Origin: an uncultured bacterium
GTDB lineage: Bacteria; Hydrogenedentota; Hydrogenedentia; Hydrogenedentales; CAILVY01
NCBI GenBank assembly: GCA_937951485.1
Contig: CALEDJ010000015.1
Coordinates: 1 to 45,310, forward strand
Length of the DNA: 45,310 bases
Direction of reading: 5' to 3'
In this document: piece by piece, positions 14,696 through 40,498 of the stretch
Numbering within the stretch: position 1 is the first letter of the stretch
Layout: every line of letters begins with the position of its first letter
The notes under the pieces: generated by a model
The model's database searches: none
The model's input: the letters and a program-made list of their open reading frames with translations, nothing else
Told to the model about the DNA's origin: nothing
Position numbers and translations under genes: made by a program

Positions 14696-14813
14696 CCTTG
14701 GCGCGTCCCGAAAAGCACATCCGCGCAGCGCGCCATCTGGAACCTTACCGGGAGAGAAATCATCGAGACATTTGCGATCTTACCGAACAGAACAATGCAA
14801 GGGAGGCCGCAAG

Positions 14814-15215: not shown

Positions 15216-15247
15216 CAGGCACCTGTTTTTACTGTTTCCTGCCTGTC
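15214..15247. repeat. REP-like inverted repeat next to the RAYT relic
   Basis: GACAGGC (15214-15220) and GCCTGTC (15241-15247) form a 7-bp inverted repeat around ACCTGTTTTTACTGTTTCCT. The GGAGACAGGCACCTGTTTTT word is a familiar flank of REP-associated tyrosine transposases, one of which lies in relic form immediately beyond it. Confidence 0.55.
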
Positions 15248-15560
15248 ATGTCAGGTTTTTGGGAACCGCGTGGGCGGCCTGCCGGCAGCGGGCGCAGACG
15301 GCGGCCGGGCATCTGCTCCAGTTTGCCGGGGAAACTGTCGCGGCCCAAGGGGTGACCGGTGCGCGTGTGCGGGCGTAGCGCCTCCACCCTTTCATCGTTT
15401 CGAAACTGTTGCAGCGTCTCGCGCCACACGGCGGCGGACGGACATGACCGTGCGCCACGCTTCCATGTGCAGTACGGGATACGCCGCGCCCATGCCGCCA
15501 TGCGCCGCGGCGCTCAGCCGCCAAGGAAAGCATGTTGCGGTATTCCGCAAGGGCATTGTG
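15229..15560 (-). pseudogene. REP-associated tyrosine transposase (RAYT), frameshifted C-terminal relic
   Basis: The C-terminal part of a Y1-type RAYT is seen in two frames on the minus strand. One frame gives PWRLSAAAHGGMGAAYPVL and HMEAWRTV (about 15545-15455). The next gives AAVWRETLQQFRNDERVEAL, then HTRTGHPLGRDSFPGKLEQM and GRRLRPLPAGRPRG (about 15435-15245). Together they match the family ending (E.AWRE...D..R...LRRHTRTGRPLGSDSF...LE..LGR.L.P...GRP). At least one frameshift separates the pieces, and the catalytic HUH/Tyr part is absent. Not functional. Confidence 0.65.
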
Positions 15561-15670
15561 GATTGCCGCAATTCGGTCCGGTGGTACGCCCCCCAGGCGC
15601 CCGGGATATTGATTTTTTTGTTCTGGTCATTTCATCGAAAAGGATTATACGCAACAACATATTTCAGAGA

Positions 15671-15694
15671 CAGCGGCCTGAAGGCCCTCCGCTG
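15671..15694. repeat. 24-bp palindrome upstream of the CODH promoter
   Basis: CAGCGG and CCGCTG flank an imperfectly self-complementary centre (CCTGAAGGCCCT). It lies 21 nt upstream of the sigma-54 -24 element. It may be an activator or repressor site, or a hairpin ending upstream transcription; no T-run follows. Confidence 0.35.
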
Positions 15695-15714
15695 CGCCCC
15701 CCGGACCGCGTGAA

Positions 15715-15730
15715 AGGCACGGGAATTGCT
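15715..15730 (+). promoter_or_regulatory. sigma-54 promoter of the CODH unit
   Basis: AGGCACGGGAATTGCT matches the TGGCACR-N4-TTGCW consensus at every position but the first, with GG and GC exactly 10 nt apart. The CooS start is 81 nt downstream of it. Two other C1 transcription units have the same element, and an NtrC-type activator is encoded at 21997. Confidence 0.8.
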
Positions 15731-15810
15731 CATTGGAACGCGCATGATGATGAATTTTACCAGTTTAATGCGGTTACTCAAACTTGACGACAACAGGTAA
15801 AGGAGTGCAC

Positions 15811-17781
15811 ATGCCGGAAGCGAAAAGGGTTTCAGCGGACGTTGCCGCAGATGAGATGGTGCGATTGGCGCAGGAACGCGGCGACAGACTGGCGCATGAC
15901 CGTTATCAGGCGATGCGGCCGCAATGCGGTTTCGGGCAGTTGGGGCTGTGCTGCCATAATTGCAATATGGGGCCGTGCCGGATTGACCCGTTTGGCCAGG
16001 GGACCAGGGAAGGCATCTGCGGCGCATCGGCGGACGTGATTGCAGCGCGGAATCTGGCCCGCCGTGCCGCGGTTGGCTCCGCGGCCCATTCGGACCATGG
16101 CCGCAGTATTGCCATGACGCTGCTGGAAACGGCGCGCGGCCAGGCGCAAGGGTATTCCATCAAAGGACCGGCCAAACTGCTGGCGCTGGCGAAGGAGTGG
16201 GGGATTGCGACGGACAAGCGCAGCCTGGAGGAGATTGCAGAGGAGGTGGCGCTGGCGGCGCTGGAGGACTTTGGGCGGCAGGACGGCGGCCTTCGGTTTG
16301 TCTCCCGCGCACCGGCAAAGGTGCAGGCGCGCTGGGAAAGTCACGGCGTGATGCCGCGCGGCGTTGATCGCGATATTGTGGGGGTGTTGCACAGCACGAA
16401 TATGGGCGGATCCAACGAGCCGTATCATTTGCTCCGCAGTTGCGTGCGGGCGGGCCTGGTGGACGGATGGGGCGGCTCAATGGTCGCCACAGAACTGAGC
16501 GACATCCTGTTCGGCGAACCCGCGCCGCTGGTATCCGAGGCGAACCTGGGCGTACTTAAGGAGGATCATGTCAACATTCTCGTTCATGGCCATGAACCCG
16601 TGCTTTCCGACGCGCTGGTGGCCGCCTCGCAAACCGACGAAGTGATGGCGGCGTGTGAGGCGGTAGGCGCGAAGGGCATTCAGTTGGCGGGGATTTGCTG
16701 CACGGCCAACGAAATTCTCATGCGCCACGGCGTACCCATCGCGGGCAACCTGCTCCACCAGGAATTTGCCCTGGTCACGGGGGCCGTGGACATGATGGTG
16801 GTGGATATCCAGTGCATTTTCCCGTCGTTGCGCGCAGTGGCGGGCAAGTATCACACGAAAATCGTCAGCACTTCGCCCAAGGCCCATTTTGAGGGGTTCA
16901 CCCACATCGAGTTCGACGAACGCCGCGCGCTGGACAGTGCGCGCACGCTGCTGTTGACCGGCATCCAGAATTTTGCGAACCGCGACCCAGGGAAGGTGCA
17001 CATCCCCACGGACAAGTCGCCATTGATTGCGGGATTTACCACCGAGGGCGTCTTTGATCATTTGGGCGGGCGCTACCGGCCCTCGTACCGCCCGTTGAAC
17101 AACGCCATCATAGACGGCCGTATCCGAGGCGTGGTCGGCATTGTCGGCTGCAACACCGTGAAGATCACGCAGGACGAGGCCCATCTGACGCTTGCCAAGG
17201 AATTGCTGCGCCACGATGTACTGATTGTGCAGACGGGGTGTTCGGCGATTGCCTGCGGGAAGGCGGGTCTGTTGACTCCGGAAGCGGTGGAACTGTACGC
17301 GGGGGCCGGGCTTCAGGAAGTATGCGATGCGGTGGGCTTGCCGCCGTGCCTTCATTTGGGCGCGTGCGTGGACAACACGCGCATCCTCACCGCGTGCATC
17401 GAGATATGCCGCGAAGGCGGCTTGGGCGATGACTTTGCGGAGTTGCCGGTTGCGGGGGCTGCGCCGGAATGGATGAGCGACAAGGCGATTGCCATCGGGT
17501 TCTACGTGGTCGGCTCGGGCATCTTTACCGTGGTCGGCGATTCGCTCCCGATTATGGGCAGCCCCCGGGTTGCAGACTACCTGACGGGCGGCATGGAAGA
17601 GGATTTCGGCGCCCGATTCGCTTTCGAGCGCGACCCGCTCAAGGCGGCGGCGCTTATTGTCGAGCATTTGAACGCCAAACGCGAGGCGCTGCATTTGTCG
17701 CCCATGATCTACGAGCCGCGACCGGCGGAAACCCTCGGCAAGAGGTGGCGCGCCGGCGGCGTCGCACTGGCGGCCGTATAG
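15811..17781 (+). CDS. cooS: anaerobic carbon monoxide dehydrogenase catalytic subunit
   Basis: 656 residues from the ATG at 15811 (AAAGGAG six nt upstream). The enzyme interconverts CO and CO2 at a nickel-iron C-cluster and passes electrons through B- and D-clusters to a ferredoxin. The N-terminal cluster motif CGFGQLGLCCHNCNMGPCRI is complete. C-cluster regions follow in order: LVHGHEPVLSDAL, GICCTANEIL, VVDIQCIFPSL, GIVGCNTVK, QTGCSAIACGKAG and HLGACVDNTRI. Length fits the Coo/Acs CODH family (about 630-670). It is the first gene of a unit continuing with CooF-, NuoE-, NuoF- and NuoG-like proteins, so its electrons probably go to NAD(P)+ or come from it. No acetyl-CoA synthase gene is adjacent. 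Confidence 0.97.
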   Translation: MPEAKRVSADVAADEMVRLAQERGDRLAHDRYQAMRPQCGFGQLGLCCHNCNMGPCRIDPFGQGTREGICGASADVIAARNLARRAAVGSAAHSDHGRSIAMTLLETARGQAQGYSIKGPAKLLALAKEWGIATDKRSLEEIAEEVALAALEDFGRQDGGLRFVSRAPAKVQARWESHGVMPRGVDRDIVGVLHSTNMGGSNEPYHLLRSCVRAGLVDGWGGSMVATELSDILFGEPAPLVSEANLGVLKEDHVNILVHGHEPVLSDALVAASQTDEVMAACEAVGAKGIQLAGICCTANEILMRHGVPIAGNLLHQEFALVTGAVDMMVVDIQCIFPSLRAVAGKYHTKIVSTSPKAHFEGFTHIEFDERRALDSARTLLLTGIQNFANRDPGKVHIPTDKSPLIAGFTTEGVFDHLGGRYRPSYRPLNNAIIDGRIRGVVGIVGCNTVKITQDEAHLTLAKELLRHDVLIVQTGCSAIACGKAGLLTPEAVELYAGAGLQEVCDAVGLPPCLHLGACVDNTRILTACIEICREGGLGDDFAELPVAGAAPEWMSDKAIAIGFYVVGSGIFTVVGDSLPIMGSPRVADYLTGGMEEDFGARFAFERDPLKAAALIVEHLNAKREALHLSPMIYEPRPAETLGKRWRAGGVALAAV

Positions 17782-17830
17782 ATAAGTGCGAATTGAATCT
17801 CCCACCAGCAAAGAGGGCATACAAGTTGTC

Positions 17831-18349
17831 ATGAAACAGATACTGGTCGTCAAGGCAGAGCGGTGCCTGGGGTGCAAGAGTTGTGAGATCGCCTGCGCCA
17901 TCGAGCACTCGAAATCGCAGGAACTGGTTGCGGCGCTGGGGGAATCACCCGCGCCGCAATCACGGGTGCGCGTGTTGCAGGGCGAAACGTTTGCCGTGCC
18001 GCTTCAGTGCCGGCAGTGCGAGGATGCCGCCTGCGTGGCGTCATGCCCGACGCAGGCGCTCCGGCGCGACCATGAGGGTCCGGTGGTGCTGGAACGCAGT
18101 CGGTGCATCGGCTGCATGTGGTGCATCGAGGCCTGTCCTTTCGGCGTCATCACCATGGACCGCAACAGCGGCGCCGTCGTGAAATGCGACCAGTGCTATG
18201 AGCGCGTCGCAGAAGGGAAAATGCCCGCCTGCGTGACGGCGTGCCCCACAAGCGCGATTGCCTGCCGGGACCTCGAGGCCGTCGTGGCCGAGAAACGCCA
18301 CGCCTATCTGGTACAGATAGAGCGGGCGGTGCGGGAGGAGGCGTCGTGA
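17831..18349 (+). CDS. cooF: CooF-like four-cluster ferredoxin
   Basis: 172 residues from the ATG at 17831; a GTG at 17786 is open upstream but has no homologous N-terminus. Four Cys motifs for 4Fe-4S clusters are visible: CLGCKSCEIAC near residue 12, CRQCEDAACVASCP near 62, CIGCMWCIEACP near 96, and CDQC ... CVTACP near 120-140. This matches CooF/HycB-type electron carriers, which take electrons from CooS. It lies 50 bp after cooS and overlaps the NuoE-like gene by four bases, so it probably relays CODH electrons to the flavoprotein encoded next. Confidence 0.93.
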   Translation: MKQILVVKAERCLGCKSCEIACAIEHSKSQELVAALGESPAPQSRVRVLQGETFAVPLQCRQCEDAACVASCPTQALRRDHEGPVVLERSRCIGCMWCIEACPFGVITMDRNSGAVVKCDQCYERVAEGKMPACVTACPTSAIACRDLEAVVAEKRHAYLVQIERAVREEAS

Positions 18350-18846
18350 GCGCGGGGGAAACTGTGTCTATCGCGGCGGACACGCCCCGGCTTGAGGCCG
18401 TCCTGCAGCGATATCGCCGGGTCCCCGCATCGCTGATTTCCGTGCTGGAGGATTTGAACGAGGAATTCCGGTATCTGCCACGCCCAGTCCTCGAGCATGT
18501 CTCGATGGCGCTCAATGTGCCGCTGAATCAGATCTACCATGTGGCAACGTTTTACAAGGTGTTCAACCTCGCCCCGCAGGGCAAGCACACAATCTGTGTG
18601 TGCGAGGGGACCGCATGCCATGTGAAAGGGGCGGGGGCAATTATGGAGAAACTGCAAGAGCAGTTGCGCGTGAGCGAAGGCGGCACCACGGAGGACGGCC
18701 AGTTTACGCTGCGCAGCGTTCGTTGCCTGGGCTGCTGTGCATTGGCGCCCGCAGTCATGGTTGACCATGACGTACACGGGGAGTTGCAATTGGACGAAAC
18801 AGCGCGACTACTGTCGCGGTATGCGGACAGGCCCGATGATGCATAA
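18346..18846 (+). CDS. NuoE-like [2Fe-2S] subunit of a soluble oxidoreductase
   Basis: 166 residues from the GTG at 18346 (GTGA overlap with the preceding stop; GGGAGGAGG upstream). A helical N-terminus (PASLISVLEDLNEEFRYLP) leads to a thioredoxin-like domain with the four [2Fe-2S] ligands in the pairs CEGTACH (C-x4-C) and CLGCC (C-x3-C), as in NuoE/HydC/HndA. It delivers electrons to or from the NuoF-like subunit. The next gene begins inside this one (overlap at 18836-18846), which points to coupled translation. Confidence 0.93.
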   Translation: MSAGETVSIAADTPRLEAVLQRYRRVPASLISVLEDLNEEFRYLPRPVLEHVSMALNVPLNQIYHVATFYKVFNLAPQGKHTICVCEGTACHVKGAGAIMEKLQEQLRVSEGGTTEDGQFTLRSVRCLGCCALAPAVMVDHDVHGELQLDETARLLSRYADRPDDA

Positions 18847-20746
18847 GTGCCCTGAACAACTGGCAGCAGTCCGGAAACGGGCGCGCGCCCGCCAAAACCA
18901 TGCACGCCCCCGGATTCTGGTGGGGGCCGCGACATGCGGGCTCGCGTCCGGCGCAGGCCCGGTATTGGAGGCGTTGCGCGCGGCGGCGGCCACGGGCGCA
19001 GAAGAGATGGAAATCACAGAGACCGGCTGCAATGGGGCCTGTTACCTCGAGCCGATCGTCGAGGCGGTATTGCCTGGCAAAACGCGCGTAATGTACGGGC
19101 ATGTCAAGCCCGGGGATGCGCCCATGATCATCCAGGCGACGGTCAACGGGACGGTCTATGAAGAACGGGCGCTGTGCCGTGTGGATGCGGATGAAATCCT
19201 GCTTGAGGACGTCGTTGCGCCGTATCGCCGCAATGGCCTCGATGCCGCCCTTGAAAGAATTGTCGCCCGTGATGCGCACCCGTTCTTTCGAAGTCAACGC
19301 CACATTGCCATGCGGAATTGCGGCGTGATTGACCCTGCTTCCCTGGAGGAATATGTCGCTCGGGGCGGCTATGCCGGCGCCGCCAAGGCGCTGCTCGAGA
19401 TGCGCCCGGAGAGCATCATCGAGGCCATCAAGCGCTCCGGCCTGCGTGGGCGCGGGGGCGGCGGTTTTCCCACCGGCCGCAAGTGGGAGGCCTGCCGCAA
19501 GGCGCCCGGCGAACCCAAATACGTCATTTGCAATGCGGACGAAGGAGACCCGGGCGCATACATGGACCGCGCCATCATCGAGGGTGACCCGCATTCAATC
19601 ATAGAGGGCATGATTATTGGTTCCTATGCCATCGGCGCGCATCTCGGCTATATCTATGTGCGCCAGGAATATCCCCTGGCCGTGAGAAGACTTCGGCTGG
19701 CGCTGCAACAGGCCGAGGAGGCAGGCTTTCTGGGCACGGACATTTTCGGGTCGGGCCATGAGTTCACCATCCAGATTAACCGGGGGGCGGGCGCATTTGT
19801 CTGCGGGGAATCCACGGCGCTGATGGCATCCCTCGAAGGGCGGGTGGGCGAACCTCGGGCCAAATATATTCATACCGTCGAATTCGGACTGTGGAACAAA
19901 CCGAGTTGCCTGAACAATGTCGAGACTTGGAACAACGTCCCGGCAATCATTCAGCGCGGGGCGGACTGGTATGCCGGGATTGGTACGACAGGCAGCAAAG
20001 GCACTAAGGTGTTCTCGCTGGTGGGCAGCGCGAAGCGGGCCGGTCTGGTGGAAGTGCCGATGGGGGTGTCGTTGCGTGAAGTGGTTGAGGAGATTGGCGG
20101 CGGCGTGACCGAAGGGCGCACGTTGAAAGCGATACAGACAGGCGGCCCATCGGGCGGATGTATTCCGGCGACGTTGCTGGACGTTCCCGTGGATTACGAA
20201 AGCCTCGGCGCCCTGGGTTCGATGATGGGATCAGGCGGCCTGGTCGTCATGGACAACAGGACCTGCATGGTGGATGTCGCGCGATACTTTACCGCTTTCC
20301 TCAAGGAGGAGTCCTGCGGCAAATGCGTGCCGTGCCGCGAAGGCTCGGCGCACATGCTCGATGTCCTCACCCGCATTTGCGAGGGGGCCGGCCGGGCCGA
20401 AGACATTCCATTGCTTGAGGAACTGTCGGTTGTCATGACGGACGGGTCCCTGTGCGCGCTGGGCGGCTCGGCGCCCAATCCCGTCTTGAGCACGCTCAAG
20501 TATTTCAGAAATGAATATCAGGCGCATATAGATGAACATCGTTGTCCCGCGGGCGTCTGCAAAGCCTTGCTTACCTACCGCATCGTTGCCGAAGACTGCT
20601 CGGGATGCGATGCCTGCGTGGACGCATGCCCTTCCGGCGCCATCTCCGGCGACTATTCCGAGGCGCACGTCATTGACGAATCATTGTGCGCCCGATGCGG
20701 CCTGTGCGTTCCCGCATGCCCCCAAGGCGCGATTATTCTGCAATGA
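18836..20746 (+). CDS. NuoF/HydB-like NAD(P)H-binding flavoprotein
   Basis: 636 residues from ATG 18836 (ATG 18839 is equivalent). An N-terminal thioredoxin-like [2Fe-2S] domain (cysteines in ATCGLASG and ETGCNGACYLEP) precedes the NuoF core: FMN site GLRGRGGGGFPTGRKW (about 202-217) with CNADEGDPGAYMDR, the NADH region GAGAFVCGESTALMASLEGR (about 318-337), and the 4Fe-4S site ESCGKCVPCREG (about 493-504) closed by SLCALG. Two further clusters end the protein: CSGCDACVDACP and CARCGLCVPACP. This is the HydB/HndC layout of bifurcating hydrogenases and formate dehydrogenases, here without a hydrogenase. With CooS and CooF it probably forms a CO- or ferredoxin-linked NAD(P)+ reductase. Confidence 0.93.
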   Translation: MMHKCPEQLAAVRKRARARQNHARPRILVGAATCGLASGAGPVLEALRAAAATGAEEMEITETGCNGACYLEPIVEAVLPGKTRVMYGHVKPGDAPMIIQATVNGTVYEERALCRVDADEILLEDVVAPYRRNGLDAALERIVARDAHPFFRSQRHIAMRNCGVIDPASLEEYVARGGYAGAAKALLEMRPESIIEAIKRSGLRGRGGGGFPTGRKWEACRKAPGEPKYVICNADEGDPGAYMDRAIIEGDPHSIIEGMIIGSYAIGAHLGYIYVRQEYPLAVRRLRLALQQAEEAGFLGTDIFGSGHEFTIQINRGAGAFVCGESTALMASLEGRVGEPRAKYIHTVEFGLWNKPSCLNNVETWNNVPAIIQRGADWYAGIGTTGSKGTKVFSLVGSAKRAGLVEVPMGVSLREVVEEIGGGVTEGRTLKAIQTGGPSGGCIPATLLDVPVDYESLGALGSMMGSGGLVVMDNRTCMVDVARYFTAFLKEESCGKCVPCREGSAHMLDVLTRICEGAGRAEDIPLLEELSVVMTDGSLCALGGSAPNPVLSTLKYFRNEYQAHIDEHRCPAGVCKALLTYRIVAEDCSGCDACVDACPSGAISGDYSEAHVIDESLCARCGLCVPACPQGAIILQ

Positions 20747-20759
20747 TGAAGGCGAGAAT

Positions 20760-21599
20760 ATGCATCAGATGAATCCTGTGAATTTCTCGATTAATGGTCG
20801 GCCAATGCGCGCAGCGCCAGGGGAAACGGTGCTGAGCGTCGCCCGCCGCAACGATATTCCCATCCCCACCCTCTGCCATCACGAGGCGCTTACGTCCCAG
20901 GGATCATGCCGGCTGTGCGTGGTCGAGGTGTCCTGGGGCGACCGATCCAAACTAGTCACGTCATGCATTTATACGCCTTACGAGGAAGACCGCATCGAAA
21001 CAGACACGCCCCGCGTTCGCACGCTTCGACGACTGGTGATTGAACTGTTGTTGGCGCGATGCCCGAACGTGGACGTGCTCCAACGGCTGGGCTGGGAATA
21101 CGGCGTGAAGCCTGGACGCCTGGCGCCTGAAGATGGGCGCGGAAAGGAACGCTGTATCCTCTGCGGCTTGTGTGTGCGCGTATGCGATGAGGTGGTGGGG
21201 CAACACGCCATCGGCTATGAAGGGCGTGGGGTGGAGCGGCGCATTACAACGCCATTCAACGATCATGCGGCGGCGTGCATTGGATGCGGCGCATGCGTAT
21301 ATGTCTGCCCGACAAGCGCGCTGCACTATGAAGACGTGGAAAACGTGCGCATTATGAAGGAGTTTCAAACCAGGGTGGAACTTGCGCAATGCCGACAGTG
21401 CGGACGTCGGTATGCGCCGGCTGTGTTGATTGAGAAAGTGACACGATGCGCGCAAACCAAGGAAGATGACCGGCACCTGTGCCCGGCTTGCCGCCGTCGC
21501 ACATTTGCAGAACGAATGTCAGCATGGATGCAAAAGCAACTGCCGGATGCCCGCGCCAACGGTGACCGTCTGGACGTGACAACACGCGCAGGAGGCTAG
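20760..21599 (+). CDS. NuoG N-terminus-like [2Fe-2S]/4Fe-4S protein with C-terminal zinc-ribbon-like region
   Basis: 279 residues from the ATG at 20760. The N-terminal plant-type [2Fe-2S] domain (CHHEALTSQGSCRLCVVEV, then SCIYTP) is as in NuoG/HydA. Two 4Fe-4S motifs follow: CILCGLCVRVCDEV (about 144) and CIGCGACVYVCP (about 182). There is no His-Cys3 cluster and no H-cluster or molybdopterin domain. The C-terminus has paired cysteines (CRQCGRRYAPAV, CPACRRRTF), as in a rubredoxin or zinc ribbon. It is an electron-wiring subunit of the CODH-linked complex, last gene of that unit. Confidence 0.88.
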   Translation: MHQMNPVNFSINGRPMRAAPGETVLSVARRNDIPIPTLCHHEALTSQGSCRLCVVEVSWGDRSKLVTSCIYTPYEEDRIETDTPRVRTLRRLVIELLLARCPNVDVLQRLGWEYGVKPGRLAPEDGRGKERCILCGLCVRVCDEVVGQHAIGYEGRGVERRITTPFNDHAAACIGCGACVYVCPTSALHYEDVENVRIMKEFQTRVELAQCRQCGRRYAPAVLIEKVTRCAQTKEDDRHLCPACRRRTFAERMSAWMQKQLPDARANGDRLDVTTRAGG

Positions 21600-21834
21600 C
21601 GGTCCCCCGACAGGTTATTACTATTCCAATCCAATCGGTATCGCCCGTGGACAATGACTGAAACTGCTGAGAACACCCGGCATCATTCTTCTCTTCATCG
21701 TATGGTGGCCATTGTTCCCGTCTTCCCCACCTCAACTCGAAGAAGCATCGGACTGCACGCGCGCATGCGATGTTCTCCTTTTTGGGTCCGTTTATTTTAT
21801 AACAGTCTGCGAAGTTCGAATGGTGTGAAGTTCT

Positions 21835-21850
21835 TGGCTTGTTTTTCGCA
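21835..21850 (+). promoter_or_regulatory. weak sigma-54-like element upstream of the NtrC-type regulator
   Basis: TGGCTTGTTTTTCGCA has GG and GC at the correct 10-nt spacing, but AC is replaced by TT and TTGC by TCGC. It may indicate autoregulation; weaker than the other three elements. Confidence 0.3.
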
Positions 21851-21996: not shown

Positions 21997-23373
21997 GTGA
22001 AGATTCTGTTGATTGATGATGAAAAGATCAAGCGCATGGCCTTGGGGGATGACTTGGCCGACGCGGGCTACACGGTTTGCGCGGTGCCAAACGCGGAAGC
22101 GGGGATGGCCTGTCTTGAGAAGCAGGAGTTTGATGTGGTGATAACCGACCTTCGGATGAACGGCATGGACGGGTTGACCTTTCTGAAGAAGGTCAAGGCG
22201 GATCACCCGGAGATCGAAGTCGTGATGATCACCGCCTATGCCACCGTTGACAATGCGGTGGAGGCGATGAAGATTGGCGCCTTTGACTATATAACGAAAC
22301 CTTTCGAGAGCGCCAAACTGATTCTGGTTCTTGAGAAGATTGCCAGGATAAAGGAATTGACGCGGGAGAACACGGATCTTCGCGCCGAACTGGCCCGTGC
22401 CACGCGGCATGGCGAAATCATTGGACAGAGCGAGGCGATGCGGGATGCTTTTGAATTGCTGCAAACCGCGATCCAGGGGGAGGCGCCCATCCTCCTATGC
22501 GGTGAAACGGGCACCGGCAAGGAATTATTTGCCGAAGCCATTCACAGATACGGCCCCCGCAAGAACGCCCCCTTCATACGCGTCAGTTGCGCGGCCTTGT
22601 CCCAGCAGCTGATGGAAAGCGAGTTGTTCGGCCATGAACGGGGCGCCTTCACGGGCGCCATGGACGAGAAGCCGGGGCGCTTCGAATTGGCCAATAAAGG
22701 GACCCTGTTCCTCGATGAAATTGACGATATCCCGTTGGACATCCAAGTCAAATTGTTGCGCGTACTGGATGGCATGCCCTTTGAACGCGTCGGGGGCGTC
22801 CGCTCCATCGTCACGGATGTGCGCATTGTGGCGGCGACGAAAGTGGACTTGAAATCCAAGGTGGACGCGGGCGCGTTCAGGATTGACCTCTACTTCCGGT
22901 TGAATGTGTTTCCGATCTGGATACCGCCCCTCCGCGAGCGCAAGGAAGATATCCCGCTGCTTTTCAACCATTTCCTGGACAAATACCGAAAGTCGCACGA
23001 ACCGCTTGAGGTGAGTGAAGAAGCCATGGCCCTGTTGTGGGATCATTCCTGGCCGGGCAACGTGCGGGAACTGCAGAACGTCACACGGCGCATCCTGATG
23101 GGATTGGGCAATCGCACCCGGATTCTGCCGCAGGACATACCTGCGGATTTGCGGCAAATTTCGGGCAAAACCGCCACCGCCAGGCCCAATACGTTCTACG
23201 AGGTGATCAGGGACGTCGAACGAGACATGCTTGAGAAAGCGCTTGAAACGGCGCAAGGCAACCAGAGTAGAGCAGCCGCCGCGCTTGGGCTGAAACTGTC
23301 CACATTCCGCGACAAACTGGCGAAGCACGGCATGTTGCATGTCGGCAGCGAAGCGGCCGCCCTGGACGCCTGA
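21997..23373 (+). CDS. sigma-54-dependent NtrC-family response regulator
   Basis: 458 residues from a GTG at 21997 (AGAGG upstream). Receiver domain 1-115: LLIDDEK, phospho-acceptor D51 (VVITDLRMNGMDG), conserved T in MITAYAT and K in DYITKPF. The AAA+ domain has Walker A GETGTGKELF (about 169), the sigma-54 contact motif GAFTGA (about 216), Walker B GTLFLDEID (about 238) and arginine-finger-region words PPLRERKEDIPLL. The C-terminus is a Fis-type helix-turn-helix (GNQSRAAAALGLKLSTFRDKL). It is built to activate sigma-54 promoters and lies between two units that have them (15715 and 23664). No kinase is adjacent; the one at 44152 is the best partner in view. No stop or frameshift is seen. Confidence 0.95.
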   Translation: MKILLIDDEKIKRMALGDDLADAGYTVCAVPNAEAGMACLEKQEFDVVITDLRMNGMDGLTFLKKVKADHPEIEVVMITAYATVDNAVEAMKIGAFDYITKPFESAKLILVLEKIARIKELTRENTDLRAELARATRHGEIIGQSEAMRDAFELLQTAIQGEAPILLCGETGTGKELFAEAIHRYGPRKNAPFIRVSCAALSQQLMESELFGHERGAFTGAMDEKPGRFELANKGTLFLDEIDDIPLDIQVKLLRVLDGMPFERVGGVRSIVTDVRIVAATKVDLKSKVDAGAFRIDLYFRLNVFPIWIPPLRERKEDIPLLFNHFLDKYRKSHEPLEVSEEAMALLWDHSWPGNVRELQNVTRRILMGLGNRTRILPQDIPADLRQISGKTATARPNTFYEVIRDVERDMLEKALETAQGNQSRAAAALGLKLSTFRDKLAKHGMLHVGSEAAALDA

Positions 23374-23466: not shown

Positions 23467-23503
23467 TTGCGGGATACCGCATTTTGTATGGGGTATCCCG
23501 CAA
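23467..23503. promoter_or_regulatory. 12-bp perfect inverted repeat, candidate enhancer site
   Basis: TTGCGGGATACC (23467-23478) and GGTATCCCGCAA (23492-23503) are perfect inverted copies across 13 nt. The centre lies about 180 nt upstream of the sigma-54 promoter, a usual distance for an NtrC-type activator. The half-site spacing (25 nt, arm to arm) would suit a dimer. It could also be a hairpin. Confidence 0.45.
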
Positions 23504-23663
23504 CTTCCAGCCGGACAAACGCCCGTATCGTTCACTTATAAAGCGCGGATGCTCTGGCTTTTCGAGTTCTCTGCCCGCAAATCTTTCTCAGAACACGCAA
23601 CATTCCCGCTATTCAGGGTCCTACCGGGGCGGGGGTGGCGTTTTTTTTGCCCCCGCGCTGCAC

Positions 23664-23680
23664 GGGCACAGGAGTTGCTA
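23664..23680 (+). promoter_or_regulatory. sigma-54 promoter of the CooC-AcsD-Fhs-Hdr-Met unit
   Basis: GGGCACAGGAGTTGCTA has GGCAC at 23665-23669 and TTGCT at 23675-23679, with the invariant GG and GC separated by 10 nt. Transcription would start near 23691, giving a leader of about 135 nt before the CooC-type gene. Confidence 0.82.
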
Positions 23681-23826: not shown

Positions 23827-24600
23827 ATGAACCCTTTGATCGCGGTGGTAGGCAAAGGCGGCACAGGCAAGAGCACCGTGTCTTCTGTACTGGTGCGCCT
23901 GTTGATGGAACATGGCGAACGTCCGGTGCTTGCGGTGGATGCGGACCCCAACAATACCCTGGCGCCTTTTCTGGGCGTGAGTTGCAGCAGGACCATTGGC
24001 GAGATTCGCGACGAGGTGCTCGCGGAAAAGGAGAAGAGCACCGGGATTCCCAAGGAGCGATTGTTGGAGATGAAGGTTGAGGAGTGTCTTCAGGAATCTG
24101 AGGGTTTTGACCTGCTGACCATGGGGCGATCCGAAGGTCCCGGGTGTTATTGCTACGTGAACAACCTCCTGCGCGGCGCCATGGCGCGGCTGCGCGCCAA
24201 TTACCGCGCCACGGTGGTGGACAACGCGGCGGGCATGGAACACCTGTCGCGCATGAACAACAAGACGATTGATTGCATGGTGCTGGTGTGCGAACCCACG
24301 TCGGTGAGCGCACGGGCGGCTGTGCGAATCAACGCCCTTGCGGACAGTCTGCATGTGGAGGTTGCGCGCCGGGTGTTGGTCTGGAACAAGGTCGAGGGAT
24401 GGGAGCCGCCGGAGAACGTGCGCGCGCTGGCGGGTGAAGAACGATTTGACGATGTCGTGGTGTTGCCGGCGGATGCGGAAATCGCCCGCCTTTCCATCGA
24501 GGAGAAAAGCGTGCTGAAAATTGCGATCCCAGACGCTTTTTCGACGCTGCTGCACGCCTGCGTACAGCATTTAACGCTCGCGGGAGAAAAAAGGTCATGA
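23827..24600 (+). CDS. cooC: CooC/AcsF-type nickel-insertion ATPase
   Basis: 257 residues (AGGAG six nt upstream). A MinD/ArsA-like P-loop ATPase: deviant Walker A VVGKGGTGKST at the N-terminus, VDADPNNTLA (about 38-47), and the metal-binding GPGCYCYVNN (CxC, about 112) that identifies CooC/AcsF maturation proteins, which load nickel into CODH or acetyl-CoA synthase and dimerise through these cysteines. It is the first gene after the second sigma-54 promoter and shares ATGA with AcsD. CooS itself lies in a separate unit 6 kb upstream. Confidence 0.94.
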   Translation: MNPLIAVVGKGGTGKSTVSSVLVRLLMEHGERPVLAVDADPNNTLAPFLGVSCSRTIGEIRDEVLAEKEKSTGIPKERLLEMKVEECLQESEGFDLLTMGRSEGPGCYCYVNNLLRGAMARLRANYRATVVDNAAGMEHLSRMNNKTIDCMVLVCEPTSVSARAAVRINALADSLHVEVARRVLVWNKVEGWEPPENVRALAGEERFDDVVVLPADAEIARLSIEEKSVLKIAIPDAFSTLLHACVQHLTLAGEKRS

Positions 24601-25583
24601 GAGCCAAGGATACAGCAATCAACTGGAACGCCGCGGTGAACACCGTGCGTATCGGCGCGACGCGCAACGAAAACGGAACCCGCGACAGAACGGTGACTCT
24701 TGGCGGAGCGCGCTGCGTGTCATGGATGCGCTACGAAGGGGAACCGGGACATCCCCCCGCGATTGCGGCCGAAATATGGGACCAGGGCGCCGAGAATTGG
24801 CCGGCGCCGATCGTGGAATGCTACGGCGACGTGATCGGCGACCCGGTCGCATGGGCGAAACAAGCCGCTGAATGGGGTGTGGACCTGATTTGTCTGCGCT
24901 TGGCGGGAACGCATCCCGCCGGCGGCGACGCGGGACCGGACAAGGCGGCGGCCGTGGTGAAAGCCGTGCTGGACGCGGTTGAACTCCCCCTGATTGTCTG
25001 GGGATGCGATGTGGAAGATAAAGACAACACGGTCCTCCCGGCATGCAGCGAGGCCGCCAAGGGAGAAAACTGCCTGTTCGGGACGATCAAGGAAAAGAAC
25101 TACCGCACCCTTGTCGCGTCCTGCCTGGCGGATGGCCACAAGATTATTGCCGAGTCGCCCTGCGACATCAATATCGCCAAGCAACTCAACATTCTTGCGC
25201 ACGATGTCGGATTCCCCCTCGAAGATATTGTCATCTTTCCGACCACCGCGGCATTGGGCTGCGGACTGGAGTTCATTTACAGCGCCATGGAGCGCACCCG
25301 CCTGGCCGCGCTCAGCGGTGATCCGCTGCTGCGCCAGCCGATCCTTTGCGATGTCGGCTCTCAGGCGTGGCGGACGCGCGAGGCTTCCACGCCGGACGAG
25401 AATGTGCCGGGCTGGGGTTCCGTGCGCGTGCGCGGCCCGCTCTGGGAGGCCATTACGGCCACGAACTATCTCCAGGCGGGCGGCGACCTGCTCATCATGA
25501 GGCATCCCGAAGCCATCAGGATAGTGCGCGAATCCATCAACCGTTTGTGCCGCACATCCGAGATGGCGATGGCGACTGCATAA
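24597..25583 (+). CDS. acsD: corrinoid iron-sulfur protein small subunit (CFeSP beta)
   Basis: 328 residues, starting in the ATGA overlap with cooC. The TIM-barrel CFeSP small subunit is identified by PAIAAEIWD, CYGDVIGDPVAWAKQAAE, GVDLICLRLAGTHP, LIVWGCDVEDKDNTVLP, GENCLFGTIKEKNYRTL, PCDINIAKQLNIL and GGDLLIMRHPEA. With AcsC it carries the methyl group from methyl-THF to acetyl-CoA synthase. Remarkably AcsC, AcsB and the methyltransferase AcsE are not in the window. It stands between cooC and fhs, consistent with a Wood-Ljungdahl role. Length is close to the family norm of about 310-325. Confidence 0.94.
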   Translation: MRAKDTAINWNAAVNTVRIGATRNENGTRDRTVTLGGARCVSWMRYEGEPGHPPAIAAEIWDQGAENWPAPIVECYGDVIGDPVAWAKQAAEWGVDLICLRLAGTHPAGGDAGPDKAAAVVKAVLDAVELPLIVWGCDVEDKDNTVLPACSEAAKGENCLFGTIKEKNYRTLVASCLADGHKIIAESPCDINIAKQLNILAHDVGFPLEDIVIFPTTAALGCGLEFIYSAMERTRLAALSGDPLLRQPILCDVGSQAWRTREASTPDENVPGWGSVRVRGPLWEAITATNYLQAGGDLLIMRHPEAIRIVRESINRLCRTSEMAMATA

Positions 25584-25738
25584 CGGATTGTTTTAAGACA
25601 TCGGAATGAAGGGAACCAGGGACAAGCGAGCGGTGAACATGGCGGCAGTCGGGAAACGCGTGACGATTCCGGCATGAGCGCGGCGCGGATTCACCCGTTT
25701 TCAGCACACACCCGGAAAGGTATAGAGGAGAGCGGCCA

Positions 25739-27589
25739 ATGTCTACCACGACCACTTTGGGTATTGCAGTACAGGATCAGGGAAAGGCCCCGTCCAGAAG
25801 AGCGCGCGCCATTAAACCGGCGCCCTTGCGGTTGGACCCGACGAAACTGAAGGACTGGGAAATTGCCGCGGCAACAGAAAAGCGGATGAGAACCGTCTAT
25901 GATCTTGCAGACGAGTTGGGTCTGGAGCGCATGGAATTGCTGCCTTACGGGCATTATGTCGCGAAACTGGACTACCGCAGCATTCTGGACCGGCTTTGCG
26001 ATGCGCCAAGCGGGAAGTACATTGATGTGACTGCGATTACGCCGACGCCGTTGGGCGAGGGGAAATCCACCACCACCATCGGACTGGTGCAGGGTCTTGG
26101 ACGCCTGGGCAAGCGGGTCATTGGCGCGATTCGCCAGCCCTCGAGCGGGCCTACGTTCAACATCAAAGGGTCCGCGGCCGGCGGGGGGCTGAGCCAATGC
26201 ATCCCGCTCACGGAATTCAGCCTTGGGCTTACGGGGGATATTGACGCCGTAAACAATGCGCACAATCTGGCCATGGTGGCCCTTACGAGCCGCCTGCAAC
26301 ACGAGTTCAACTATTCCGATGAACGGCTGGCCAAAGCCAATCTGAAGCGACTGGACATAGATCCCCGCAATCTCGCCATCGGGTGGGCCATAGATTTCTG
26401 CGCGCAGGCGCTGCGGGAAATCATTGTGGGGCTTGGCGGCAAGATGGACGGGTTCATGCTCAAGAGCGGTTTCCAGATCACCGTCTCATCGGAAATCATG
26501 GCCATCCTGTGCGTCTCGACCAGCCTTGCCGATATGCGCAGGCGCATTGGCGAGATGGTTGTGGCCTGGAGCAAATCGGGCAGGCCGGTCACGACGGCCG
26601 ACTTGGAGGTGGACGGCGCCATGACGGCTATCATGGCGCGCGCCCTCAACCCGAATCTGATGCAGACCATCGAGGGGCAGCCGGTGCTGGTTCATGCGGG
26701 GCCTTTCGCCAACATCGCGTTCGGGCAGTCGTCCATTCTTGCGGACATGCTGGGCACGAAACTGGCCGATTACCATGTGACCGAAAGCGGGTTCGGGGCG
26801 GACATCGGCTTCGAGAAGTTCTGGAATTTGAAGTGCCGTTTCAGCCGCCTAGCGCCCCATTGCGCCGTCGTTGTCGCCACCATCCGGGCACTGAAAATGC
26901 ACGGCGGCGGTCCCAAGGTAGTGTCCGGCAAGCCGTTGCCCGCAGCCTATACACAATCGGACCCGGCGTTGGTGGAGAAAGGGGTCGAGAATCTGCTCGC
27001 CCACATTGAAACCGTGAAGAAGAGCGGCGCGAATGCCGTGGTTTGCATCAATCATTTTCACACGGACGCAGACGAAGAGGTGAACGTGGTGCGGCGCGCG
27101 GCGGAGGCGGCGGGCGTGCGTGTCGCCGTGTCAAAGCACTGGCAGTACGGCGGAGAAGGGGCCATTGAACTGGCCGAGGCCGTGCTTGACGCCTGCAACG
27201 AGCCTTCAACGTTCCAATTGTTGTATGAAGACGATACGCCCGTGAAGGACAAGATTGAGCGTATCGCTTTGGGCGTATATGGCGCCGACGGGGTGTCCTA
27301 CAGCGCGACTGCCGAGGCGAAAATCGATCAGATTCAGGGTGATGAGAACACGAAGCGACTCGGTATTTGCATGGTCAAGACACATCTGAGTCTTTCGCAT
27401 GATCCCGAACGGAAAGGACGCCCGCGCGGATGGACGCTGCCCATTCGTGATGTGCTTGTGTATCGCGGCGCAGGCGTGGTCGTGCCGGTGGCGGGTGATA
27501 TCAAACTCATGCCGGGCACCTCTTCGGACCCCGCCTACCGCAAGATTGATGTGGATACCGAGACCGGAGCGGTGCGCGGCCTGTTCTAG
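25739..27589 (+). CDS. fhs: formate-tetrahydrofolate ligase
   Basis: 616 residues from the ATG at 25739 (AGAGGAG nine nt upstream). ATP-dependent formylation of tetrahydrofolate, the second step of the methyl branch. Nucleotide site [16 protein letters not shown] (about residues 102-117), followed by [47 protein letters not shown] and [17 protein letters not shown] at the C-terminus. The protein is longer than the usual 555-590 residues; the first 35 or so ([20 protein letters not shown]) look like an extra N-terminal tail. It lies 155 bp after acsD and 86 bp before hdrC, in the same likely transcript. Confidence 0.97.
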
Positions 27590-27675
27590 CGGAACATATA
27601 TCCTCCGGCGCATCCCCGGCGCGGATCGGCGGCGGTAAGCGGACCAATTTGAATTTGAAACAGATGAGGCCTTGA

Positions 27676-28173
27676 ATGCCAGTAGCATTCAGAGAAAATA
27701 TCAACCGCTGTTACCAATGCGGAAAATGCTCGACCGGATGCCCCATAGCCGAGGCCATGGACATGCTTCCGCATCAGGTGATCCATTTGCTGGCCTTGGG
27801 AATGGAAGCGCGGGTCAGACCGCTCAACACGCCGTGGCTGTGCGCCGGATGCTATACGTGCGCGGTGCGCTGTCCCAACGACATTGACGTGACGGCGGTC
27901 ATGGGCGAATTGCGCGAGAAGGCGATTGCGGCGGGTGCGCCGTGCCCTTGCCCCGATGTACTCGCATTCCACAGGAATTTCCTGCGGGATTTGAAACGTC
28001 GGGGGCGCATCCATGAACTGCGGATGATGGGCGAATACAACCTGCTGACCCGCCGCCCATTCCGGGATGCCGCGCTGGCATCGAAAATGCTGCTGAAGGG
28101 GCGGCTGCCGTTGCGTGCGCCCAGGGCGTTGCGTGGTTTCAAACGGTGGGTGCGGAAAGCGGGGCGACTGTGA
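27676..28173 (+). CDS. hdrC: heterodisulfide reductase-like subunit C
   Basis: 165 residues with two 4Fe-4S motifs typical of HdrC: CYQCGKCSTGCP (about residues 12-23) and CAGCYTCAVRCP (about 56-67), followed by a basic helical C-terminus. HdrC passes electrons between HdrA and HdrB. It shares GTGA with hdrB. With hdrB, hdrA, mvhD, metV and metF it forms a set as in acetogens, where HdrABC-MvhD accompanies MetFV methylene-THF reductase. Confidence 0.93.
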   Translation: MPVAFRENINRCYQCGKCSTGCPIAEAMDMLPHQVIHLLALGMEARVRPLNTPWLCAGCYTCAVRCPNDIDVTAVMGELREKAIAAGAPCPCPDVLAFHRNFLRDLKRRGRIHELRMMGEYNLLTRRPFRDAALASKMLLKGRLPLRAPRALRGFKRWVRKAGRL

Positions 28174-29102
28174 AAAAGGCGACGGGACTATATCCGGGGT
28201 GCAGCCTGGAAGGAACTTCCAAGGCTTTCCGCACCAGCCTGCGCAGCGTGTTGCGGAGGCTCGATGCGCAGTGCGAGCCGTTGCGTGATTGGAACTGCTG
28301 TGGGGCGAGTTCGGCCCATGCCATGGACCATGAATTGTACCTGGCCTTGAGCGCGCGGAACCTGGCGCAGGCGCGAGACCAGGGCTACGAGGAAATCATT
28401 GCGCCGTGCGCCGCATGTTATCACCGGCTGGTTTGCGCGGAGATGGAACTGGCCCGGCATCCCGAAACGCTCGCGGCGGTCAACGCCCGGACCGGCCTGA
28501 ACTACGGCGGCGGAATTGCGGTGCTGAACATGCTCGATTACTTTACGGACCGGGTGGGCCTTTCCGCCATCGGCGAACAGGTCAGGCAACCCCTGAAAGG
28601 CCTGCGGGTCGCCTGTTACTACGGCTGCTTGAACAGCCGGATACCCCATGCCGCGGCCACGTCGGGGCCGCCAGACGCTCCCGGGGGCGCCACCCGCAGT
28701 GAATATCCGATGTCCATGGACCACATTGTTGCGGCATTGGGCGCGCAGCCGCTGGATTGGTCCTATAAGACCGAATGCTGCGGAGCCAGTTTGTTTGTAA
28801 CGGCATCGTCGGTTTCGGCGCGGCTTGTAGGGCACATTCTGAAAGATGCGGTGGCGGCGGGCGCGGATTGCATCAGCGTGGCCTGTCCAATGTGCCAAAA
28901 CAACCTCGATACCAAACAGGACGCGATACGCGCCGCCTTTGGCATCGGCCGGCCCATGCCGGTCCTGTTCATTACGCAGTTGATGGGGCTGGCTTTCGGC
29001 GTGTCGGCCGCTGAGTTGAGGATTGGAGATGCCCTTGTGCCGTTCCAGTGGCGCGTAGACAAGGGCGGCGCGGCGGCGGAGGTGACGGCATGTCCGGCAT
29101 GA
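28170..29102 (+). CDS. hdrB: heterodisulfide reductase-like subunit B
   Basis: 310 residues from the GTG at 28170 (overlapping the hdrC stop); a GTG at 28146 is a less likely alternative. Two CCG-type domains carry the cysteines of the noncubane 4Fe-4S clusters: YPGCSLEG, WNCCGASSAHAMD and CAACYHRLVC in the first; YYGCLN, ECCGASL and CPMCQNNLD in the second. The family role is two-electron chemistry on a disulfide-like substrate; here, in a methylene-THF context, the acceptor is unknown. It overlaps hdrA by 13 bases. Confidence 0.93.
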   Translation: MKKATGLYPGCSLEGTSKAFRTSLRSVLRRLDAQCEPLRDWNCCGASSAHAMDHELYLALSARNLAQARDQGYEEIIAPCAACYHRLVCAEMELARHPETLAAVNARTGLNYGGGIAVLNMLDYFTDRVGLSAIGEQVRQPLKGLRVACYYGCLNSRIPHAAATSGPPDAPGGATRSEYPMSMDHIVAALGAQPLDWSYKTECCGASLFVTASSVSARLVGHILKDAVAAGADCISVACPMCQNNLDTKQDAIRAAFGIGRPMPVLFITQLMGLAFGVSAAELRIGDALVPFQWRVDKGGAAAEVTACPA

Positions 29103-32100
29103 ACAACGGCGCTCCGGTCGGAGCGGTGCTGGTGCTCGGCGGCGGCATTGCGGGCATGCAGGCGGCGCTGGATTGCGCCAACTCCGGCTTCAAGGTGTAC
29201 CTGGTGGAACAGCAGGCGTCCATCGGCGGCAACATGGCGCGCCTGGACAAGACATTCCCGACCAATGACTGCGCGATGTGCATGATTTCGCCAAAACTGG
29301 TCGAGACCGGACGCCATCTCAATATCGAAATCATCGCAAACGCGGACCTGAAGGCGGTGGCGGGCACGCCCGGTCGTTTTCAGGCAACCATCAAGAAGCG
29401 TGCCCGGTATGTGGATGAGAACAAATGCAACGGGTGCGGGGATTGCGAACGCGCCTGCCCCGTGACCTGCAGGGATGCGTTCAATGGCGACCTCGGAGAG
29501 CGGCACGCTATCCATCGGTTGTATCCGCAGGCGATCCCCAACGTATATGCCATTTCCAAGGCAGGCGCACTGCCGCCATGCCGGGGCGTCTGCCCGGCGG
29601 GCGTGAATGCCCAGGGCTATGTGGCCCTGATCGCCAAGGGCAAATTCCTGGAATCGCTGGATGTGGTCCGCGAACGCATGCCCTTTGCGGGTATCTGTGG
29701 TCGCGTGTGCCATCATCCCTGCGAAACCCAGTGCAATCGCGCGAAAGTGGACGAGCCGATCGCCGTCCGCCACCTGAAGCGTTTTGTCGCCGATTATGAG
29801 TGGTCGCTGATAAAAACGGGCCAGTCCATCGCGCGCGCGCCCAGCGAAGCGCCTGTGGCCGAACCGCAGCGCTATCAGGAACGCGTGGCCGTCGTGGGCG
29901 GCGGCCCCGCCGGGATGACCTGCGCCAACGATCTGGCCAAGATGGGCTATGCCGTCACCGTTTTCGAGGCGGCGGAACAACTGGGCGGCATGATGCGCCA
30001 GGGGATTCCCGCCTACCGGCTGCCGCGTGAGGTGCTTGACCACGAGATCGCGCTCATCACCGGCCAAGGCATTGACGTGCGCACCAACCAGGCATTGGGC
30101 CGCGATTTCACCCTGTCAGACCTCCGGGCGCAGGGCTATGCCTGCACTTTTGTGGCCACCGGCGCGCACCTGCCCAAACGCATTCCGCTAGAAGGCAGCG
30201 ACGCCGTCGGCGTCCTGTACGGGACATCCTTTTTGCGCGAGGTCAACGTGGGACAAGCCCCGCGCCTGGGCAAGCGCATCGCGGTGATCGGCGGCGGCAA
30301 TGTCGCGATTGACGCGGCGCGCTGCGCCCTGCGCGAAAGCCCTGACAGCGCGGTGGCGCTGTATTGCCTGGAAGCGCGTGGGGAAATGCCCGCGCATGAG
30401 TGGGAGATACAGGAAGCGCTGGAGGAGGGCATCGCCATCCATCCGTCCTGGGGGCCGGGGCGCATTCTTGTCAGGAACGGCGCAGTGCGTGGGTTGGAAC
30501 TCGTGAGGTGTCTGTGCGTCTTTGATGAAAACAGGCAATTCAACCCGAAGTTTGACCGGGCAGAGACGCAACAGGTCACGGCGGACACGATTATTCTGGC
30601 GGTGGGCCAGGTTTGCGACCTGTCCTTTGTGGACGGGCATGTGCAAACGAAGCATGGACTGATAGCCGTGGACCGGATCACCCTCGAAACCTCGATGAAG
30701 GGCGTGTTTGCGGGGGGCGACAACGTGCTGGGGCCGGCATCGCTGGTGCAAGCCGTCGAGCAGGGGCACCGCGCCGCCGAGTCCATGCACCGTTTCATGC
30801 GCGGGCTTGACCTGCGTGAAGGCCGGGAAGCGGTCGAACGTAGCGCGGAATTCGCCGCCCCCCCCGCTGAGACGCCGGTGGTTCCCGCCAGGCGGATCGC
30901 CATTCCCACAGCCTCCCCGGAAGAACGGAAGCGGTCTTTTCTGGAGATGGAACACGGTTACACCCCGGAGATGGCGATGGCGGAAGCGCAGCGTTGCCTG
31001 AACTGCGGCATTTGCTCCCAGTGCAACGAATGCGTCCGGGTCTGCAAGGCCCATGCGATAGACCATGCCATGCGCGACCAGGACCTGACGCTGGAGGTCG
31101 GCGCTGTCATCGTGACCAACGGATACGATCTTTTTGACCCGCGTATCAAGGCCGAGTACGGGTTTGGCCGCTATCCCAACGTGATCACGAGCATGCAATT
31201 CGAGCGCATCCTGAGCGCGTCCGGGCCATACCAGGGGCACGTGCGACGTCCCGGCGACGGCAAGACGCCCAGGAAGGTCGCGTGGATTCAGTGCGTCGGA
31301 TCACGCGATACAACGCTGGGCAGGAACTACTGCTCTTCCGTTTGCTGCATGTACGCCACGAAAGAGGCGATCATCGCGAAAGAACACGAAAAGGACCTGG
31401 AGCCGACCATTTTCTTCATTGACCTCCGCGCTTTCGGCAAAGGGTATGAGGAATTCTACAACCGCGCCAAATCCCAATACGGGGTGCGGTATGTGCGCAG
31501 CCAGGTCTCCTCGCTCAAGGAGAATCCTGAGAACAAGAACATCATTATCCGGTATGTGGGGGAATCCGAGGGCCGCATACGCATTGTCGAGGAGGAATTC
31601 GATCTGGTGGTGTTGTCCGTGGGGATGACGGCGCGCCCGGACACCGCGGTGCTGACGCAAACCCTCGGCATCTCCTGCAACGAATACGGCTTTGCTCGCG
31701 GTTCGCAGGCGTTGCCGCTGCTGTCGGACAGGGAGGGGATTTATCTGTGCGGGACGGTGAGCGGCCCGAAGGACATTCCGGAGACGGTCATGGAAAGCAG
31801 CGCGGCGGCGGCGCTGTGCGGACAGTTGCTGGGCCGCGCGCGCGGGACGCGGGTGCGCATCAAGGAGTATCCCGCGGAGCGCGAGGTGGCGGGCGAAGCG
31901 CCGCGAATCGGCGTTTTCATCTGCCATTGCGGCACAAACATCGCCTCGGTGGTGGATGTCGCGGCCGTGGCCGAATATGTGAAAAGCATCCCCGGCCTGA
32001 CCCATGCGGAGCATACCCTGTACGCCTGCTCCCAAGACACCCAGGAACGGATCAAGGGCATCATTCAAGAGAAAAGGCTGAATCGCGTCATCGTGGCTTC

Positions 32101-33625: not shown

Positions 33626-33629
33626 GGCA

Positions 33630-34112
33630 ATGAGCACGGAAACAATTGCAATGCCGGCGGAGACAGCCGAAACGGACGCGTTGAGGATCATCGCGTTCTG
33701 TTGTCATTATTGCGCGTTTACGGCGGCGGACCTTGCCGGGACCATGCGCCGGCAATACCCGCCCAACATCCGCATTGTCCGGTTCCCATGCACGGGACGT
33801 CTGGAGACCAACACAATCCTGCAGGCCTTTCTCGATGGGGCGGACGGCGTACTGGTGGCGGGATGCGAGCCGGGCGGTTGCCATTTCCTCAAAGGGAATC
33901 TGCGCGCGGCCAAGCGGGTCGAACACTGCCGGAGGCTGCTGGAGCAGGCCGGTGTATCGCCGGAACGGCTTGAAATGCGGCATATCGCGGCGTCGCAGGG
34001 GCCGCTGTTCGCCGAAACGGCCAGGCAGTTTACGGAAAAGATTCGCATGATCAAGGAACAGGCCCGACGCGGGACAGCCCCCTCCGACGAATGCCTTGGA
34101 GACGAGCCATGA
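33630..34112 (+). CDS. mvhD: MvhD-like [2Fe-2S] subunit
   Basis: 160 residues (GGGAGTAGGG upstream). Typical MvhD/FrhD cysteines: FCCHYCAFTAAD near residue 24, RFPCTGRLE near 53, and AGCEPGGCHFLKGN near 80. In methanogens MvhD links hydrogenase to HdrA; in acetogens and sulfate reducers it links other donors to Hdr. It stands between hdrA and metV, with an ATGA overlap to metV, so it probably connects the Hdr core with the MetFV reductase here. Confidence 0.93.
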   Translation: MSTETIAMPAETAETDALRIIAFCCHYCAFTAADLAGTMRRQYPPNIRIVRFPCTGRLETNTILQAFLDGADGVLVAGCEPGGCHFLKGNLRAAKRVEHCRRLLEQAGVSPERLEMRHIAASQGPLFAETARQFTEKIRMIKEQARRGTAPSDECLGDEP

Positions 34113-35835: not shown

Positions 35836-35914
35836 TCTGCGAAAGTTGTCTTGCAATAATGCGAATGTCAAAGATAGCCCATCCTCAGAACGCTGGACAA
35901 CCCCCTCCACACGG

Positions 35915-35930
35915 TGGCACATGATTTGCT
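35915..35930 (+). promoter_or_regulatory. sigma-54 promoter of the PRC-barrel/formate dehydrogenase unit
   Basis: TGGCACATGATTTGCT: TGGCAC at 35915-35920 and TTGCT at 35926-35930, GG and GC 10 nt apart, a full match to the consensus core. Predicted start near 35941, giving a leader of about 135 nt before the PRC-barrel gene. An inverted GGTAT...ATACC lies in that leader (36039-36056). Confidence 0.85.
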
Positions 35931-36770: not shown

Positions 36771-36881
36771 TTGCACAACGTCGCGCGAGGCAATGCGGGT
36801 TGATAAGAGAGCGGCAACGCCTGGGGCGCTTCATGCCGCGAGACACGCGCGCCGAGGCAATACCAATAAGGAGAACAACCA

Positions 36882-40495: not shown

Positions 40496-40498
40496 GGG

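Follow-up and report, generated by a model that had tools for sequence, protein, structure and literature searches.

Background

The two-component systems closest to the one described here are NtrB/NtrC, AtoS/AtoC, and ZraS/ZraR. They share with it the domain order of the response regulator (RR), the GAFTGA motif, a Fis-type HTH, sigma54 promoters, and a remote UAS of paired dyads. They differ from it in the UAS itself, in the cysteine-rich two-CW-like region that we find in the kinase, and in their targets, which are here predicted to be genes of the Wood-Ljungdahl pathway (WLP). CO dehydrogenase (CODH) genes are also controlled by CooA and RcoM, one-component haem CO-responsive activators that work with ordinary sigma factors, whereas the control predicted here would run through a phosphorelay and sigma54. 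To our knowledge, the transcriptional control of the WLP is poorly understood.

SigA is the main driver of acetogenesis genes in E. limosum, A. woodii, and A. bakii; SigH has been reported for the pathway in Sporomusa, and sigma54 for betaine genes (PMC12456013). These cultured acetogens share with the present genome the pathway and its coordinated separate units, which they drive with SigA or SigH, while sigma54 and a dedicated two-component activator are predicted here. Sigma54 regulons described in Clostridiales (PMC6615313) and Desulfovibrio vulgaris (PMC4641369) cover fermentation, amino acids, alcohols, and formate-lyase; like our analysis, these studies follow a comparative-genomic logic of UAS and promoters and tie sigma54 to central metabolism. 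By term search, CO dehydrogenase is absent from the main texts of both, the Wood-Ljungdahl pathway is absent from the main text of PMC6615313, and a sigma54 regulon survey (PMC12316311) mentions neither CODH nor the pathway. The literature searched, from which most subscription journals were excluded, yielded no earlier description of WLP genes under a sigma54 two-component system.

From sequence comparison, we propose that an NtrC-type RR and its sensor kinase form a two-component system that co-activates four sigma54 WLP units in the genome examined here (G000). We give this reading a probability of about 0.78.

Results

A sigma54 activator within a Wood-Ljungdahl gene island

The window analyzed covers bases 1 to 45,310 of contig C15 (124,879 bases), which belongs to G000 (4.55 Mb, 94% complete). 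The RR gene sits within a WLP gene island, whose features are collected in Table 1. Beyond the window, the contig carries the rest of the kinase gene, cooC2, acsB, acsC, a RACo-type corrinoid activase gene, acsE, and folD. The cooS assignment follows from a TIGR01702 match above the cut-off, and mobA was assigned from reading the sequence.

Table 1 Predicted target units, regulatory genes, and putative regulatory sites of the island (window positions unless marked as contig positions)
Feature	Position	Strand	Sequence	Remarks
UAS dyad 1, cooS unit	15536..15549	+	TGCGGTATTCCGCA	
UAS dyad 2, cooS unit	15557..15570	+	TGTGGATTGCCGCA	21 bp from dyad 1
Sigma54-like promoter, cooS unit	15714..15730	+	AAGGCACGGGAATTGCT	weight matrix
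Target unit 1	15784..21599	+		cooS, FeS protein, nuoE, nuoF, HoxU-like subunit
Possible sigma54-like site 5' of RR gene	21834..21850	+	TTGGCTTGTTTTTCGCA	significance doubtful
NtrC-type response regulator	21997..23373	+		receiver, AAA+ sigma54 activator, Fis HTH; 458 aa, GTG start
UAS dyad 1, cooC-acsD unit	23468..23481	+	TGCGGGATACCGCA	
UAS dyad 2, cooC-acsD unit	23489..23502	+	TGGGGTATCCCGCA	21 bp from dyad 1
Sigma54-like promoter, cooC-acsD unit	23663..23679	+	CGGGCACAGGAGTTGCT	weight matrix
Target unit 2	23827..35835	+		cooC1, acsD, fhs, hdrC, hdrB, hdrA-gltD, MvhD-like, MetV-like, metF; predicted operon extent
UAS dyad 1, fdh unit	35774..35787	+	TGCGCGATTCCGTA	in 3' end of metF
UAS dyad 2, fdh unit	35796..35809	+	TGCGGAGAATCGCA	22 bp from dyad 1
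Sigma54-like promoter, fdh unit	35914..35930	+	GTGGCACATGATTTGCT	best score in 83 kb
Target unit 3	36078..43884	+		protein without Pfam match (E<=1e-5), nuoE, nuoF-gltD fusion, fdhA, mobA
Probable cognate sensor histidine kinase	44152..45310, continuing to contig position 45462	+		predicted TM helix, two-CW-like region with six Cys, HisKA, HATPase
Fourth sigma54-like promoter, acsB	contig position 46611			just past window; weight matrix

The start codon of the RR matches that of its orthologues. Matches above the Pfam cut-offs were obtained for Response_reg (PF00072, residues 3–111, E 3e-29), Sigma54_activat (PF00158, residues 141–307, E 1e-65), AAA_lid_14, and the C-terminal Fis-type HTH_8 (PF02954, residues 404–443, E 4e-12). 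The alignment of four orthologues shows no variation at the receiver residues D51, D7/D8, T79, and K101, in the Walker A sequence GETGTGKE, or in KLSTFRDKLAK, the core of the HTH, and GAFTGA becomes GSFTGA in one protein, that of G003. These matches and the alignment bear out an earlier note on this DNA, which had read an intact receiver with D51, GAFTGA, and a Fis-type HTH in the gene. It had also placed the gene between two units with sigma54 promoters, and sigma54-like sites are indeed found at 15714 (cooS) and 23663 (cooC-acsD).

With its receiver Asp, AAA+ domain bearing Walker A and GAFTGA, and Fis-type HTH, the protein has the features of the NtrC family (group I). The best NCBIfam models were ntrC and AtoC for the RR and AtoS and ZraS for the kinase, all with scores below the equivalog cut-offs (for the RR, 435.7 bits against 558.6 for TIGR01818, NtrC, NR(I), and 417 bits against 714 for the AtoC model NF008469). 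The haem-binding CRP-like or PAS-LytTR architecture of CooA and RcoM is not that of the RR, which is receiver-AAA+-HTH_8. RpoN is present in the genome (PF04552 at C45, E 5e-61), together with 16 clear sigma54 activators, i.e., 15 besides the RR.

No sigma54-like site was found upstream of fhs or hdrC, which makes hdrA-gltD most likely a part of the cooC-acsD unit. The earlier note had listed hdrA-gltD beside cooS and acsD and had spoken of three promoters; hdrA-gltD has no site of its own, and the third site (35914) precedes the nuoE/nuoF-gltD/fdhA unit. GltD-like NAD(P)H modules are fused into HdrA (29048–33625) and into NuoF (37274–40495), and these fusions suggest that formate dehydrogenase and Hdr receive electrons by an NAD(P)H-linked, possibly bifurcating, route. 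Elsewhere in the window, a tandem repeat of the 7-base unit TCCGCAT (8.3 copies, 9381–9438) lies upstream of minus-strand ABC-type genes.

A probable cognate kinase with a six-cysteine region

The kinase gene, which the earlier note overlooked, is found in the same island approximately 21 kb downstream of the RR gene. RR orthologues occur only in G063 (66%), G019 (63%), and G003 (56%). A separate scan of genome contigs with the RR retrieved paralogues alone, at no more than 46% identity. When ten genomes were searched with the kinase, orthologues aligning into the cysteine-rich region (310–340 bits, 42–45% identity) were found in exactly these three, and all other matches in that search scored at most 151 bits and covered the kinase core only. 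In each of the three relatives, the kinase gene is directly upstream of the RR orthologue, adjacent to or overlapping it, and among 68 genomes of the phylum, the four that carry the kinase gene are also the four that carry the RR gene, G000 included. Given this shared distribution and the adjacency in the relatives, we consider the two proteins a two-component system whose genes stand apart in G000.

An N-terminal TM helix, predicted from reading the sequence, is followed by the cysteine region (residues 94–145), with the pattern CW...C...C...CW...C..C and six cysteines that are invariant in the four orthologues. Its motif spacing is similar to that of the two-CW domain NF045718, to which the kinase scored 23.9 bits (E 4e-5), below the cut-off of 35; a literature search for "two-CW domain" returned nothing. 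Pfam reported no PAS domain or periplasmic sensor in the kinase. The AlphaFold2 model had a mean pLDDT of 59, with the cysteine region below 50, and was left out of the argument. As a guess, the cysteines suggest a region that senses a redox, metal, or gas/CO signal.

Paired dyads upstream of four sigma54-like promoters

The earlier note had proposed a motif search upstream of the promoters; a paired dyad proved to be shared by four WLP units. The inverted repeat at 23467–23503 consists of two TGCGG-N4-CCGCA dyads 21 bp apart. Each of the four units (cooS, cooC-acsD, nuoEF-fdhA, and acsB) has such a pair, 20–22 bp apart, upstream of a sigma54-like promoter, at a distance of 118–195 bp from dyad start to promoter start. 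Allowing at most 3 mismatches, exactly four dyad pairs were found in 83 kb, all at WLP units. Taking as a module any dyad pair followed 80–220 bp downstream by a sigma54-like site with a score of at least 12, we observed 4 modules in 83 kb, compared to 1 in total across 200 dinucleotide shuffles. Because the consensus for the dyad was derived from the cooC site, independent tests are provided by the remaining sites alone.

The sigma54 scan covered the same 83 kb, with a weight matrix modelled on the published consensus. The bare -24/-12 consensus was discarded as evidence, given 18 matches in the window with at most 2 mismatches where 26 were expected; the sites are therefore significant only through their position and the upstream dyads. 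Three of the four WLP elements have RGGCACRGGANTTGCT in common. A further sigma54-like sequence upstream of cooC, TGGCGTTTTTTTTGC at 23635, scored 9.1 and was set aside as weaker than the site at 23663.

Genome-wide, dyads were located by pattern search. The strict pair pattern matched 3 sites in the whole G000 genome, all at WLP units, and the reversed control matched 0. There are 15 other single dyads, none of them paired or accompanied by a sigma54-like site, and 14 are intragenic. Neither the RR gene nor the kinase gene has a dyad in front of it, and autoregulation of either through the same UAS was rejected.

An alternative is that the dyads act as transcription terminators or are palindromes that arose by chance, and that the promoters are chance matches. 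The 23467–23503 repeat, 94 bp past the RR stop, could form a hairpin, and the raw consensus matches are no more frequent than chance would give. However, no T-run follows the repeat, the same geometry recurs at four independent units and almost never in shuffled sequence, the modules are conserved in G003 and G056, and the single dyads scattered through the genome are unpaired and nearly all intragenic. We disfavour this reading and consider it close to negligible. When seven modules were aligned, the dyads and promoter were conserved and the spacer between them was not alignable, which argues against simple copying or duplication of modules.

Distribution among relatives

CooS orthologues of 75–77% were found in G003, G054, and G056. 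G003 also has the kinase-RR pair, adjoining cooC2 (a cooC paralogue, 74% identical to that of G000), and carries a module at cooS, with dyads at 14446 and 14468 and the promoter at 14647. G056 conserves the module at cooS, and neither kinase nor RR was found in its assembly (84% complete, 790 contigs). It stands as a counter-example, which a gap in the assembly may explain. G054 has the WLP with no kinase, no RR, and no module at cooS. The profile of cooS against the RR, which the earlier note had put forward as a check, is thus mixed: G003 has both, while G054 and G056 share the cooS clade and no RR was found in either.

The remaining two genomes with the pair lack this CODH clade. G019 has a CODH of another type (49%), and no CODH was found in G063 (66% complete). 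The modules of G019 precede non-C1 genes, encoding a PKD-domain lipoprotein and a MoeA-like protein. At L068:4907 and 5063, the intergenic region that separates the kinase-RR genes from the divergent MoeA-like gene holds a sigma54-like site of very high score (17.7) and, 156 bp away, a perfect dyad, and on this arrangement the MoeA-like gene is likely a non-C1 target of the same two-component system. A dyad pair also lies 192 bp upstream of another sigma54-like site in this genome. The earlier note had tied its proposal to the neighbours of the RR orthologues, and here too the outcome was divided, with cooC2 beside the RR in G003 and non-C1 neighbours in G019 and G063.

These observations bear on the possibility that the RR is a non-dedicated, wider redox/energy activator with ancestral targets elsewhere, and that WLP units were recruited in the G000 and G003 lineages. 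The G019 targets and the lack of a detected CODH in G063 speak for it. On the other side, every detectable paired module in the G000 genome is at a WLP unit, and the kinase-RR pair is enriched among CODH/ACS genomes (3/4 vs 7/68, hypergeometric P about 0.003, calculated by hand with phylogeny ignored). We consider this history unlikely, and for G000 it is compatible with co-activation of the four WLP units by the RR.

A different objection is that one of the 15 further sigma54 activators binds the dyads, and that the RR, placed in the island by coincidence, has other targets. The number of activators in the genome allows for this, as do the G056 module at cooS where no RR was detected and the retention of the pair in G019 and G063 without this CODH clade. 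Yet the HTH region of the RR, with its recognition helix, turned up in no genome besides the four that have the kinase-RR pair, and modules with promoters are present in 3 of these 4 and, among the other 64 genomes, in G056 only. The RR and kinase genes also both lie in the island, and the pair is beside cooC2 in G003. It is this correlation from which we infer that the RR binds the dyads; another activator in its place seems quite improbable. Strict pair matches in G004, G006, G052, G054, and G064 had no well-placed sigma54-like promoter, were mostly intragenic, and were taken as chance.

Gene order differs between G054 and G000. G054 has cooS, nuoF, acsB, acsC, cooC1, acsD, and acsE in one uninterrupted run on a single strand, whereas G000 distributes these genes over separate units that each carry a module. 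An ORF at 14772–15713 in the window, which reads as a decayed transposase fragment (14817–15500 has no Pfam match), abuts the cooS promoter module and may mark a rearrangement that split the operon. The divergent cooS/cooC2 intergenic region of G056 (L074:7380–7990) contains two paired dyads together with sigma54-like sites in both orientations. The corresponding cooC2/cooS region of G054 (L071:6624–7090) has no dyads and a TTGACA-like hexamer, a sequence suggesting that control passed to sigma70 once the two-component system had been lost.

Discussion

In the mechanism we propose, the kinase, perhaps via its six-cysteine cytoplasmic region, would phosphorylate the RR at D51. The activated RR would then assemble on the paired dyads, about two helical turns apart, and its AAA+/GAFTGA domain would remodel sigma54-RNA polymerase at the four promoters. 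The predicted units cooS-nuoEF, cooC-acsD-fhs-hdr-met, nuoEF-fdhA, and acsB-acsC-RACo-acsE would thereby be transcribed together.

Counting against the RR as the activator are the G056 module with neither RR nor kinase found, the G054 pathway without either, the pair in G019 and G063 without this CODH clade, the RR and kinase genes without an upstream UAS dyad, and the 15 other sigma54 activators. The earlier proposal of the RR as a dedicated C1 activator is well supported for G000, with its four WLP units, unique dyad pairs, and both regulatory genes in the island, and probably for G003; it does not fit G019 or G063. At somewhat below even odds, we suggest that a dedicated sigma54 two-component system with a six-cysteine cytoplasmic sensor, possibly an Fe-S/redox switch, runs the whole WLP as a single regulon of several operons, and that the module was kept or acquired as an ancestral operon split in four.

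Because sigma54 promoters stay silent until their activator acts on them, sigma54 two-component control would make the WLP an on/off regulon under one signal. Since the activator, sensor, DNA sites, and promoters are all named, each step can be tested from DNA parts with no culture needed. A CO/formate carbon-fixing pathway appears to be switched on as one block in a bacterium of an uncultured phylum, with a promoter type other than those reported for this pathway in the acetogens studied so far. Judging by the cysteine-rich sensor, carbon fixation may be gated by redox state or by a metal/CO signal.
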